Assembly: GCA_012837965.1 (NCBI GenBank)
Contig: DUQF01000022.1
Location: 1-64,000, forward strand
Origin: Clostridiales bacterium
Lineage (GTDB): Bacteria > Bacillota > Clostridia > Christensenellales > Aristaeellaceae
Length of the DNA: 64,000 bases
Direction: 5' to 3'
Shown: positions 12,166 to 32,492 of the stretch, piece by piece
Layout of the letters: every line of letters begins with the position of its first letter
Numbering within the stretch: position 1 is the stretch's first letter
Notes under the pieces: generated by a model
Databases searched by the model: none
The model's input: only the letters and a program-made list of their open reading frames with translations
Told to the model about the DNA's origin: nothing
Position numbers and translations under genes: made by a program

Positions 12166-12669
12166 ATGATTGATATTAAAAAGTTGTCGAAGCAATACTT
12201 TGTGAGGCGATTGACGCAAAAGGATGCGCAACAAGTTGAATGCCTGCAGCAAGGAAATCCTATGTATTACAAATTTTGCCCGCCTGCTCCTTCTATCAAG
12301 AACGTTCTTAATCAAATGAATGCGCTGCCGACCGGAAAAGAGCTCAGGGATAAATATTTCATAGGTTTCTTTGAAGAAGAGGAATTGATCGCTGTTATGG
12401 ATTTGATCGAGGCGTATCCAAACCAAGAGACGATATTTATCGGTTTTTTTATGGTGAGCAAGGAGCGGTCGGGCCTTGGGATTGGAAGCAATATCATCAA
12501 ACAATGTTTGCATGAAATAGAACGCCAAGGTTTCTCTTTTGTGCGGCTGGGTTACATGAAGGGGAATTTACAGAGCGAGAATTTTTGGCGCAAGTGCCAA
12601 TTTACTCCTACAGGCATTGAAACAGATAACGGACAAGGTATTGTTGTGGTTTTAGAGAAAGAACTTTAA
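12166..12669 (+). CDS. GNAT family N-acetyltransferase
   Basis: 167 residues from ATG at 12166 behind ACAGGAAG. The acetyl-CoA binding motif is visible as SKERSGLGIGSNIIK (R/Q-x-x-G-x-G/A type, about residues 103-117), followed by the usual C-terminal strand pattern (FVRLGYMKGNLQSENFWRKC). The N-terminal part (YYKFCPPAPSIKN) resembles uncharacterised Firmicutes GNAT proteins. The substrate is not predictable. It is followed 14 bases later by the TfoX-like gene, probably co-transcribed. Confidence 0.8.
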   Translation: MIDIKKLSKQYFVRRLTQKDAQQVECLQQGNPMYYKFCPPAPSIKNVLNQMNALPTGKELRDKYFIGFFEEEELIAVMDLIEAYPNQETIFIGFFMVSKERSGLGIGSNIIKQCLHEIERQGFSFVRLGYMKGNLQSENFWRKCQFTPTGIETDNGQGIVVVLEKEL

Positions 12670-12683
12670 ATGGTGGAGATAAA

Positions 12684-13004
12684 ATGGGATCAAGCAAAGG
12701 ATATTTAGAGTATATTTTAGACCAGTTAATTGATTTGGACGACATCAGCTATCAAGCGATGATGGGTGAATATATTCTGTATTACAAAGGAAAAATTGTC
12801 GGCGGAATATATGACGACAGGTTGCTTGTAAAACCCGTGCCCTCCGCCATTGACTATATGCCAAATGCAAAATATGAACTGCCGTATGAAGGGGCAAAGG
12901 AAATGCTGCTGGTCGATAATGTAGACAACAAAGAGTATTTGACGGGCTTATTTAATGTGATGTTTGATGAATTGCCTGTTGCGAAAGCAAAAAAGAAGAA
13001 ATAA
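12684..13004 (+). CDS. TfoX N-terminal domain protein
   Basis: 106 residues behind GGTGGAG. Residues 1-95 match the TfoX_N fold (YLEYILDQLIDLDDISYQAM, MGEYILYYKGKIVGGIYDDR, LLVKP). The C-terminal TfoX domain of the proteobacterial competence regulators is missing, as usual in Gram-positive members. It ends in a Lys-rich tail. Gram-positive stand-alone members are of unknown role, so a link to competence should not be assumed. A terminator follows at 13040. Confidence 0.8.
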   Translation: MGSSKGYLEYILDQLIDLDDISYQAMMGEYILYYKGKIVGGIYDDRLLVKPVPSAIDYMPNAKYELPYEGAKEMLLVDNVDNKEYLTGLFNVMFDELPVAKAKKKK

Positions 13005-13039
13005 CACCTTACAATTGAGCTAATCCAGGGATTATGAAA

Positions 13040-13080
13040 GGTTCGGATTTGTCTGTAAACAGTCCGAACCAATATTTTTA
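13040..13080 (+). terminator. Terminator after the TfoX-like gene
   Basis: GGTTCGGA (13040-13047) pairs with TCCGAACC (13063-13070), with CTGT/ACAG inside and a T-rich tail (AATATTTTTAT). It ends the ftsK-GNAT-tfoX stretch just before the mgtE promoter. Confidence 0.8.
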
Positions 13081-13091
13081 TCAATTGCCGA

Positions 13092-13120
13092 TTGACAGTC
13101 CTTAACGGAAAGATTACAAT
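13092..13120 (+). promoter_or_regulatory. Promoter of the mgtE leader transcript
   Basis: TTGACA (13092-13097), 17-base spacer, TACAAT (13115-13120): a near-consensus housekeeping promoter. Transcription would start near 13127, giving a 200-base leader before mgtE. Confidence 0.85.
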
Positions 13121-13153
13121 GATAGAGAATTTTTATGAAGGAGGTGGCGAAAC

Positions 13154-13231
13154 ATGGGCGACGGCGTTCGATGTAAGACAAAAGATGACATTCCGCGAAG
13201 TCGGCGCAGTCCCATGACGCTGCCCGATTAA
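13154..13231 (+). CDS. 25-residue leader peptide upstream of mgtE
   Basis: A 25-codon ORF, MGDGVRCKTKDDIPRSRR then SPMTLPD, starts 8 bases after a perfect AAGGAGG (13138-13144) and ends with TAA at 13229-13231. It is 29 bases before the attenuator terminator. The peptide has an acidic pair followed by Ile-Pro and a basic stretch. It recalls in a general way the enterobacterial MgtL leader, where Asp/Glu/Pro codons destabilise ribosomes at low Mg. There is no sequence homology to MgtL that I can see. Translation is supported by the ribosome-binding site only. The alternative is that this is simply structured RNA with a chance ORF. Confidence 0.5.
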   Translation: MGDGVRCKTKDDIPRSRRSPMTLPD

Positions 13232-13259
13232 GTTTTTTGTCTACGTCCATAAGTCGCCT

Positions 13260-13289
13260 GCACTTTTTTCTTTTGGAAAAGTGCTTTTT
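13260..13289 (+). terminator. Attenuator terminator before mgtE
   Basis: GCACTTTT (13260-13267) pairs with AAAAGTGC (13277-13284), followed by TTTTT. It lies between the promoter and the gene. Confidence 0.85.
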
Positions 13290-13326
13290 ACCTTGGAAAA
13301 AATAAATTGTTGGAGGTGAATTGACG

Positions 13327-14673
13327 ATGAACTGGGACAAAATGGAAGAAACCTTAGACCGGCTGATGGAACAGAAACGCCACGGGCAACTGCGCGGGGC
13401 TTTGATGATGGTCAACCCTGTTGATATTGCTGAATACATGAAAAAGCTGGACGCGGAAAACCTTCTGCTTATGTTCCGCATTCTGCCTAAGGATGCTTCG
13501 GCGGAGGTGTTCAGCTACATGGATTCCGACCAGCGGGAAATGCTGGTAGAATCAATCGGCGACAGGGAGCTTACTGCTCTTATCAACGATATGTTTTTGG
13601 ATGACGCGGTGGACTTTCTGGAAGAACTGCCCGCCAACGCGGTCAAGCGGATACTGCAGTATACAGACCCTCAAAAACGCGCTATTATCAATCAATTTCT
13701 GAATTATCCCGAGAATTCTGCCGGTTCCTTGATGACGATAGAATACTGCGAATTCAGTCCGGATATGAATGTGCGGGACGCTTTGAAGACTATCAAAAAA
13801 ACCGGGGTTGACAAAGAAACGGTATACACTCTGTATTTGGTGGACAACCAGCGCAAGCTCGTGGGAACTGTGCCATTGCACAAAGCCTTGATCGTGGAGG
13901 AAGATACGCTCCTTGGCAAACTGACGGATCCTTCTATTATCTCGGTTACCACTTTGGACGATCAGGAGATGGTTGCCCAGACCGTGCGCAAATACCATTT
14001 GTTGTCTATCCCCGTTGTGGATAGGGAAGGACGAATGGTAGGCATCATTACCAGCGACGATATCATGGATGTTATTGTAGAAGAAGGCACCGAGGACTTT
14101 GAAAAAATGTCGGGTTTGGCGCCTGCCGAGGAGCCTTATTTCAAGACCAGCCTTTTTAAATTGGCGAGCAACCGTTTGCCCTGGCTGATGATTTTGATGT
14201 TCACTTCCATTATTTCCGGCGCTATTATTTCAAAATTTGAAAACGTGTTGGCGGTGAATATCCTTTTGTCAGCTTCCATTCCCATGCTGATGGACTCCGG
14301 CGGCAACTGCGGCCAGCAGGCATCCACGCTTATGATTCGCGGTATAGCCTTAGGAGAGGTGGAATTTAAGGATCTGCCCAAGGTGCTGTGGACAGAAATT
14401 AGAGTAGGGTTGTTGGTGGGTTCGGTCATGTCCGCCACAACCTTTGTCAGGCTCCTATGGCTGAATAAAGCCTCCGTAGTCATGTCGGCGGTCATTTCGG
14501 TCAGCTTATACGCTACTGTGGTCATAGCAAAAGCCATTGGCTGCGTACTTCCGCTTTTGGCGCAGAAAATCAAGGTTGATCCGGCCCTTGCGGCATCTCC
14601 CTTAATTACAACTGTCGTGGATGCCAGCAGCCTGTTTATCTTTTTCACCATTGCTTCCCGCTTTGTGCTTTAA
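13327..14673 (+). CDS. mgtE: Magnesium transporter MgtE
   Basis: 448 residues from the ATG at 13327 (GGAGG 10 bases upstream; a TTG at 13321 is also possible). An N-terminal MgtE_N helical domain (about 25-125) is followed by two CBS domains (about 130-255) that sense cytosolic Mg and gate the channel, then five membrane helices (about 285-445). The pore region includes the family-specific SIPMLMDSGGNCGQQASTLM. It imports Mg down its gradient as a dimer. Expression is probably set by the attenuator leader directly upstream. Length is normal. Confidence 0.95.
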   Translation: MNWDKMEETLDRLMEQKRHGQLRGALMMVNPVDIAEYMKKLDAENLLLMFRILPKDASAEVFSYMDSDQREMLVESIGDRELTALINDMFLDDAVDFLEELPANAVKRILQYTDPQKRAIINQFLNYPENSAGSLMTIEYCEFSPDMNVRDALKTIKKTGVDKETVYTLYLVDNQRKLVGTVPLHKALIVEEDTLLGKLTDPSIISVTTLDDQEMVAQTVRKYHLLSIPVVDREGRMVGIITSDDIMDVIVEEGTEDFEKMSGLAPAEEPYFKTSLFKLASNRLPWLMILMFTSIISGAIISKFENVLAVNILLSASIPMLMDSGGNCGQQASTLMIRGIALGEVEFKDLPKVLWTEIRVGLLVGSVMSATTFVRLLWLNKASVVMSAVISVSLYATVVIAKAIGCVLPLLAQKIKVDPALAASPLITTVVDASSLFIFFTIASRFVL

Positions 14674-14694
14674 AAATGAAAAAATGCCCTATGG

Positions 14695-14723
14695 TTGACA
14701 AGAGAAAAGCACGGGTCTATACT
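14695..14723 (+). promoter_or_regulatory. Promoter of the ribU operon
   Basis: TTGACA (14695-14700), 17-base spacer, TATACT (14718-14723). It lies just before the FMN riboswitch. Confidence 0.85.
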
Positions 14724-14730
14724 GGTATTA

Positions 14731-14842
14731 CAACTACTTCAGGGCGGGGTGCAAGTCCCCACCGGCGGTATAGCCCGCGAGCCGAAAGGCTGACATGGTT
14801 TAATCCCATGGCCGACAGTATAGTCTGGACGGAAGAAGGGTT
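14731..14842 (+). ncRNA. FMN riboswitch (RFN element)
   Basis: The conserved RFN blocks appear in order: TTCAGGGCGGGGTGCAAGTC, CCCACCGGCGGTA, AGCCCGCGAGCC, the variable arm, then GCCGACAGTATAGTCTGGA and GGAAGAAGG. This six-helix aptamer binds flavin mononucleotide and is followed by a terminator (14850-14880), so FMN should switch off transcription of ribU. The alternative antiterminator was not worked out in full. Confidence 0.96.
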
Positions 14843-14849
14843 TCTTTGC

Positions 14850-14880
14850 ATCGTCTCCTGAGGTGGGGGACGATTTTTTT
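14850..14880 (+). terminator. FMN-controlled terminator before ribU
   Basis: ATCGTCTCC (14850-14858) pairs with GGGGACGAT (14865-14873), followed by seven T. It is the expression platform of the FMN riboswitch. Confidence 0.9.
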
Positions 14881-14890
14881 GGAGGTTGCA

Positions 14891-15475
14891 ATGTCTAAGC
14901 GAATGAATACAGCTCGCATCACCTACGTTGGAATGATGGTCTCTCTAAGTGTCATTTTAAGCTATTTCCCCGAAATACCTCTTGCTTTCTTCGCCCCATG
15001 GCTGAAATTGGATTTTTCCTTCGTGCCTATGATGTTGGTGGGCTTTTCTATGGGGCCGGTGGCCAGCGTTTTTACTTTAGGTATCACTATGCTGTTTCAT
15101 GGCCTTGGCTCAACTACGGGCTGGGTGGGTGAGCTTGCCAACTTGTTGATGGGCCTTGCCTTCCTTTTGCCGGGAGCCATCATCTATCAAAAAAAGCGGA
15201 CCAAATCGGTGGCGCTGTGGAGCATGCTTGCAGGAACAATTTTGATGAGCTTGGTGGCCATGGCGTGCAACAGGTATATCCTCATCCCGCTGTATGGCGG
15301 GGAAGCCATGCTTCAAAGTGCAGGCAGGACCATGACAAGCTATATTCTCTTTGCCATTTTACCTTTTAACCTGCTGAAAGGAGCGGTCAACTCATTTCCA
15401 ACCTTTATTTTATATAAGCGTTTGTCCATTGTCCTGCGTGAGGCGGAAAAGAAAACTGATGCAAGTTGTCAATAA
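14891..15475 (+). CDS. ribU: Riboflavin ECF transporter S component RibU
   Basis: 194 residues from ATG at 14891, 5 bases after GGAGG; earlier in-frame starts lie inside the terminator. Six hydrophobic helices and the pattern MVSLSVILSYFPEIP, LKLDFSFVPMMLVGFSMGP and FHGLGSTTGWVGELANLLMG fit the RibU substrate-binding subunit. It captures riboflavin and works with the shared EcfAA'T energising module, which is not in this window. The FMN riboswitch upstream confirms the substrate. It overlaps tsaE by 17 bases and so leads a ribU-tsaE-tsaB-rimI operon. Confidence 0.93.
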   Translation: MSKRMNTARITYVGMMVSLSVILSYFPEIPLAFFAPWLKLDFSFVPMMLVGFSMGPVASVFTLGITMLFHGLGSTTGWVGELANLLMGLAFLLPGAIIYQKKRTKSVALWSMLAGTILMSLVAMACNRYILIPLYGGEAMLQSAGRTMTSYILFAILPFNLLKGAVNSFPTFILYKRLSIVLREAEKKTDASCQ

Positions 15476-32154: not shown

Positions 32155-32160
32155 CGATTA

Positions 32161-32484
32161 GAGGCGATTAAATGGTCGCGTGCCGCAAGGCATGAGGAAA
32201 GTCCGAGCGCCACAGGGCAGGGTGCCAGCTAACGGCTGGTGGAGGCGACTCCAAGGCAAGTGCAACAGAAATAAACCGCCGAGCATCGCTCGGTAAGGGT
32301 GGAAAGGTGCGGTAAGAGCGCACCGGCGGCTATGGCAACTTAGTCGTCCTGTAAACCCCACTTGGCGCAAGATAACTGAGGGCATAGGTGGCCCGCCAGC
32401 CTTCGACCATCGCTTGAGCAACCTGGCGACTTGTTGCCCAGATAGATGACCATTCTCGACAGAACTCGGCTTACAATCGCGCTC
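32161..32484 (+). ncRNA. rnpB: RNase P RNA (class A)
   Basis: The universally conserved segments are present: GAGGAAAGTCCGAGCGCCAC (CR I), the AGTGCAACAGAAATAAACCG region, GGTAAGGGTGGAAAGGTGCG, AAACCCCACTTGG, and AGATAGATGACC with ACAGAACTCGGCTTAC (CR IV/V). The ends pair (GAGGCGATT with AATCGCGCTC) as helix P1. This ribozyme trims the 5' ends of pre-tRNAs. The termini are estimated to within a few bases. It begins 6 bases after the zinc-ribbon gene and is probably co-transcribed. Confidence 0.97.
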
Positions 32485-32492
32485 TTTTCATT

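Follow-up and report, generated by a model that had tools for sequence, protein, structure and literature searches.

The window analysed here, a stretch of 64,000 nucleotides from a Clostridiales bacterium, carries a gene for the Mg2+ transporter MgtE, which is preceded by a promoter, a short leader ORF, two long-range helices and an intrinsic terminator (Table 1). The initial annotation had read a near-consensus promoter, a perfect AAGGAGG (13138-13144) followed by a 25-codon ORF and a terminator just before mgtE in this region, and all of them were recovered at the same positions, with the terminator formed by a 10-bp stem and five T. It had also stated that no space was left for another promoter after the terminator. 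This was borne out, since the gap from the T tract to mgtE is 37 nt, with no room for a second promoter of such kind. From the promoter in Table 1, mgtE is reachable only via readthrough of the terminator. A promoter-like TTGACA..TATAAT also lies just 5' of the leader in many relatives. The upstream region is present as a single copy in its genome.

Table 1. Features of the mgtE upstream region in the window
Feature	Position	Strand	Remarks
Sigma-70 promoter TTGACA-17-TACAAT	13092..13120	+	11/12 consensus match
Leader Shine-Dalgarno (SD) AAGGAGGTGGC	13138..13148	+	core GGAGGTGG invariant among close relatives
Leader ORF MGDGVRCKTKDDIPRSRRSPMTLPD, 25 codons	13154..13231	+	start ATG 13154; stop TAA 13229-13231; 86 distinct leaders including that of the window; codon-level conservation
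Helix S1, 5' strand	13143..13158	+	GGTGGCG 13143-13149 (with 13218-13224), CATGGG 13153-13158 (with 13211-13216); covers start codon; covariation, folding
Helix S1, 3' strand	13211..13224	+	CCCATG 13211-13216, CGCTGCC 13218-13224; final part of leader ORF; covariation, folding
Helix P1, 5' strand	13157..13183	+	GGCGAC 13157-13162 (with 13253-13258), GATGT 13170-13174, AGACAAAA 13176-13183 (with 13235-13242); leader codons 2-10; folding and family test
Helix P1, 3' strand	13235..13258	+	TTTTGTCT 13235-13242, ACGTC 13243-13247, GTCGCC 13253-13258; past leader stop; covariation, folding
Intrinsic terminator GCACTTTTTTCTTTTGGAAAAGTGC+T5	13260..13289	+	stem 13260-13284; 10-bp stem and T tract; arms covary
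mgtE	13327..14673	+	ATG start; MgtE_N, CBS, MgtE domains (Pfam)

The M-box, NiCo and yybP-ykoY riboswitches, which the initial annotation had named as candidates for this place, gave no match in the leader region even at E<=10 in Rfam 15 (12500-15000 searched), and neither did any other Rfam riboswitch. The M-box (RF00380) was also absent from the genome of the window (G000). A known riboswitch was rejected as the identity of the leader on these negative Rfam results. Two Rfam elements were found in the window, an FMN riboswitch (14731-14844) ahead of the S component of an ECF transporter with riboflavin as the probable substrate, and the class A RNase P RNA (32160-32489).

Conservation and distribution of the leader peptide

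Homologous leaders were found 140-390 nt upstream of mgtE in Christensenellales-like Clostridia MAGs, 86 of them distinct, with the consensus M-D-[DE]-G-x-R-C-x3-[ED]-G-V-P-R-S. A conserved peptide before mgtE in relatives, for which the initial annotation had proposed a search, was thus observed, and it had no match in Pfam or NCBIfam. The SD spacing is fixed and the frame closed in all leaders, with ATG, GTG or TTG as start codon. In the codon-level comparison of 77 leaders of common spacing, Pro14 was present in every one and was encoded by four codons (CCG/CCC/CCT/CCA); Glu or Asp at position 11 (75/77 leaders) and Val13 also used four codons each. Both codon families were used for Ser16 (TCG, TCA, AGT, AGC) and for Arg6 (AGA, AGG, CGA, CGG). 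Peptide conservation is confined to the first 16 residues; the C-terminal part varies freely and takes part in S1. The leader pN/pS was 0.54 in frame versus 1.39 and 1.04 in the other two frames, and codon-column shuffles gave a mean of 0.94; pN/pS alone is only suggestive, because the lowest of the 60 shuffles falls below the true value. On comparative grounds, from the conserved SD, start, peptide and closed frame, the leader is shown to be translated, and a short ORF conserved as a peptide stands before the gene, as in leader-peptide attenuators.

The same arrangement was seen in most of the first 30 upstream regions inspected, and mgtE was detected in 77 of 100 family genomes. A sequence-only leader model of 71 nt, built from 24 leaders, matched 84 of 300 family genomes, with a single match in each except beside a tandem mgtE duplication; one genome (G079) had an extra, weak putative match. 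Every strong match with a testable flank had mgtE downstream. Weak matches in other families of the order (L067, L068, L071, L085, L086) were also directly upstream of mgtE, and the weakest short matches are chance. The named records with the core pattern were MAGs assigned to Clostridia/Christensenellaceae, with rumen and gut among their sources, and mgtE came next in all 19 loci of sufficient length; the arrangement occurs in gut and digester Clostridia. A class-wide search with the leader model gave only weak matches, so the wider distribution described below rests on a survey of upstream ORFs (uORFs) and not on homology. At the tandem locus L004 (G115:C8:29135-32079) each mgtE copy has its own leader, and the second one carries the more acidic motif VEDEPR (MVSGEKCRAVEDEPRGSSAVSALSA).

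Long-range helices and the expression platform

The 3' part of the leader varies in length, so an alignment-free pairing test was used, in which the duplex energy of cognate segments was compared with that of other leaders' partners (doubly centred, 53 de-duplicated leaders). In S1 the start-codon region (-10 to +8) and the final quarter of the ORF (stop -24 to -5) are paired, with a cognate advantage of -5.8 kcal/mol and z -12.8 for wider segments (z range -8.9 to -12.8). P1 pairs codons 5-14 with positions +6 to +28 past the stop, with an advantage of -2.9 kcal/mol and z -6.1 for wider segments (about -5 to -6 overall). Control segment pairs gave z +0.5 to +1.4 in the de-duplicated set. The signals persisted within single clades (S1, z -3.9 and -5.3; P1, z -3.2 and -4.3), which points to a limited effect of shared base composition. 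The terminator arms also covary across relatives (z -4.4), so covariation was found for all three structures. The two pairs of distant complementary segments marked by the initial annotation as a long-range helix were confirmed, and both belong to P1; that picture was incomplete, since the family also conserves S1.

S1 and P1 cross in order and the linker is too short for a pseudoknot of that size, from which they are probably alternative folds. On a sequence alignment RNAalifold recovered S1, and P1 cannot appear there since it crosses S1. The window transcript ending at the leader stop is predicted to fold as S1 with its start codon fully paired, and P1 is predicted to win from position 13246 on, by 11 kcal/mol in the full leader; without a ribosome the inner pairs of P1 have probability 0.94 and the outer pairs 0.61. 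The leader folds at -51.6 kcal/mol, modestly better than shuffled sequences (z -2.3). The evidence beyond chance is comparative, and consists of the 86 leaders and the covariation of the two helices and the terminator.

An intrinsic terminator ends many leaders of the family, with GTGCG or GCGTG often next after its T tract, in some cases as a TTTTTGTGCGCAAAAA-like sequence (L010, L014, L020, L032 and others). One group of leaders (g62) has no such terminator, and a hairpin pairs a CGCCTTCAC-like sequence with the SD of mgtE (GTGAAGGCGG), with changes on both sides among members. As in leader-peptide attenuators of the trp/mgtL kind, a terminator or an SD-hiding hairpin lies between leader and gene. 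The 5' arm of the g62 hairpin falls within the 3' segment of P1, and formation of P1 would thus expose the SD of mgtE.

P1 adjoins the terminator without overlap in the window and in its close relatives, and the predicted terminator of the window forms with or without P1 and at every ribosome position tested. The initial annotation had proposed a leader-peptide or new RNA-based Mg attenuator in a Gram-positive. A leader-ORF element absent from Rfam in a Gram-positive lineage stood, with no strong Rfam match and with relatives that keep the peptide as well as the pairing, but a helix that switches the terminator did not follow from these predictions. The initial annotation had further reasoned that a ribosome stopped at codons DDIP or at the stop codon would cover part of the helix; this stall and the response to Mg2+ are putative. 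A ribosome-footprint scan over all leaders gave less terminator without a ribosome in about six close relatives, and no effect or the opposite in the others. The family covariation tests turned up neither a conserved antiterminator nor an upstream segment that covaries with the terminator 5' arm. In the window, with the RNA end at 13270, the leader SD (13137-13146) can pair with the terminator 5' arm (13261-13270) through 10 bp with several G-U, atop P1 and before the terminator 3' arm is made, a possible antiterminator in this model. As a general antiterminator this pairing was rejected (covariation z +1.4, a weak test since the SD is invariant), and as a family feature it did not exceed what shuffled arms gave (mean z 0.07).

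M-box riboswitches and acidic-start ORFs before mgtE

An M-box lies directly before mgtE in five members of the family that lack the leader (G016, G021, G084, G088, G113), and in the rest of the order one was found at 13 mgtE loci. The leader seems to take the place of the usual magnesium riboswitch before mgtE, and its link to Mg2+ gains indirect support because the M-box occupies the same place in leader-less relatives.

At many mgtE loci of the order without an M-box, a short ORF led by an SD was present, typically with an MDxG start (MDAGSSSGVPVGRRRRNRNGMTFLFPV, MDGNGKCGLNDPNPGRSRRR, MEDGSTSTVPVKKRNRV). When uORFs were called by one rule throughout (an SD, a length of 15-45 codons and Asp or Glu as second residue), they preceded mgtE at 23 of 66 loci of the order (p 2e-9) and, in other Clostridia orders, at 9 of 40 (p 8e-5), versus 1 of 92 other genes, and shuffled sequences gave 0.25-0.35 per 40. 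The comparison was repeated on loci picked via mgtE only, not via the leader pattern. Some matches, such as L175 and L190, bear no evident relation to the MDxG type, and some are strikingly mgtL-like (MDSDPLPGKYN at L243; MDAGSSSGVPVGRRRRNRN). The exclusion between M-box and ORF is not absolute, because three loci have both, with the M-box and the acidic-start MD-type uORF in series before mgtE (L243, MDSDPLPGKYN...; L264, MDSGPGSLDNYIPQ...; L230, MDESPN...).

Proposed mechanism and rival readings

A few leaders in enterobacteria are known to sense Mg2+ through the ribosome that translates them. In mgtL, low Mg2+ leads to ribosome drop-off at EPDP and a changed mRNA fold (PMC11282234). The mgtL leader of mgtA in Salmonella and E. 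coli resembles the clostridial leader in that it precedes a Mg2+ transporter gene and has a short ORF in which acidic residues come early; it differs in phylum, in the transporter (mgtA versus mgtE) and in its Rho-dependent instead of intrinsic terminator, and there is no sequence similarity. The window peptide MGDGVRCKTKDDIPRSRR precedes mgtE and is not a homologous EPDP peptide before mgtA. Translation of mgtQ is hindered by its own Asp2 and Glu5, which frees the RBS of mgtB via alternative stem-loops (PMC8092293). Asp2 is also common in the clostridial leaders and the mgtE SD of g62 is hidden by a hairpin, whereas mgtQ has 8 codons, shows no homology and lies within an operon between mgtC and mgtB of Salmonella, unlike a 5' leader with its own promoter. 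The clostridial leaders have an acidic start, Pro, alternative helices, a Mg2+ transporter gene and, in some of them, a basic stretch in common with mgtL/mgtQ, and may work in a similar way without being members of that group. The M-box riboswitch takes the same place before mgtE in leader-less relatives, in contrast to the window leader, which by comparative evidence is a translated ORF with no M-box match. The Thioalkalivibrio mgtE motif is likewise a candidate RNA element upstream of mgtE; it is a riboswitch candidate restricted to that genus with no uORF described (PMC11109978). Upstream of pe20 in M. tuberculosis an M-box senses Mg2+ and a small uORF is its target (PMC12810186); a short conserved ORF inside a Mg2+-controlled leader is common to both cases, with the difference that the M-box is the sensor there.

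We consider the segment to be a translation-coupled leader-peptide attenuator of mgtE, likely responsive to Mg2+ and similar to mgtL/mgtQ without homology (probability about 0.65); we infer both the sensing of Mg2+ and the link by which ribosome position would act on termination. Transcription would start some tens of nt 5' of the leader ORF. Folding suggests that S1 would form first and hide the leader start codon while only the ORF has been copied, and that P1 would replace it once the segment past the stop is made. Ribosomes that enter or stall on codons 1-15 would then set the fold and hence transcription readthrough, or in the g62 group the translation of mgtE. Under low Mg2+ the ribosome might pause or fall off at the acidic N-terminus M-D-[DE]-G ... 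[ED]-x-V-P-R with its rare Arg codons AGA and CGA, which would turn mgtE on as with enterobacterial mgtL and mgtQ. The destabilising motif is weaker in these leaders than the EPDP of MgtL, because about 30% of them, the MGDG of the window included, have Gly or Ser as second residue.

If the element were a new riboswitch aptamer with Mg2+ or another ligand as its direct target, and its overlap with the ORF accidental, the two conserved long-range helices, the high nucleotide conservation and the metal transporter gene downstream could be accounted for. This reading is unlikely, since conservation tracks codons (four Pro codons, two Ser families, alternative starts, fixed SD spacing and closed frame) and the acidic-start ORF persists in distant relatives once RNA similarity is lost. 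The codon data also touch on classical charged-tRNA attenuation, with a stall at rare Arg codons 6 and 15 (or Cys7) when aminoacyl-tRNA is scarce: CGA made up 70 of 71 Arg15 codons and AGA 61 of 68 Arg6 codons, though the window uses these two less than any other Arg codon (CGA 7.7%, AGA 6.8%); the leader of the window has CGA at both places. The near-fixed CGA at Arg15 may reflect a slow codon or an RNA constraint. There are one or two such codons and no run, no link between Arg or Cys supply and MgtE is known, and relatives across the order retain MDxG and not the Arg/Cys codons, which makes charged-tRNA attenuation quite improbable.

Strong peptide conservation would equally be expected of a small functional protein, such as an MgtE regulator, encoded by the leader instead of a cis-acting element. 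This is very improbable in view of the restriction of conservation to the first 16 residues, the free C-terminal part that pairs in S1, the invariable location directly upstream of mgtE and the covarying RNA pairing. The insensitivity of the predicted window terminator to ribosome position agrees with a terminator that serves constitutive tuning and a leader without regulatory role; we give this hardly any credence, as the conserved peptide and two covarying helices require a selective reason and the M-box is found in the same place in relatives.

Beyond the window, Clostridia with such leaders may sense magnesium through the translating ribosome. We see about an even chance that widespread unreported acidic-start leader peptides in Clostridia (MDDGxRCxxxEGVPRS, MDAGSSxG, MDSDPLP and others) sense cytosolic Mg2+ by ribosome destabilisation, control mgtE, converge on enterobacterial mgtL/mgtQ and have replaced the M-box in many lineages. 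No report of mgtE leader peptides in Clostridia was found in the non-subscription literature searched. In many Clostridia mgtE has mostly either an M-box or an acidic-start short ORF at the same place. If the proposal is true, ribosome-based Mg2+ sensing would be common and have evolved repeatedly, and since riboswitch and leader peptide alternate before the same gene, an evolutionary sensor swap would be directly testable.

Two further uORF types were observed in other families of the order. One (L205, L206, L209, L218, L220) begins with MKGRSS, often ends in FAA..SA and precedes a longer MgtE of about 560 aa in another family. The other (L207, L212, L213), M[DK]xHxxDxDxIGR-like, lies before mgtE in yet other families.
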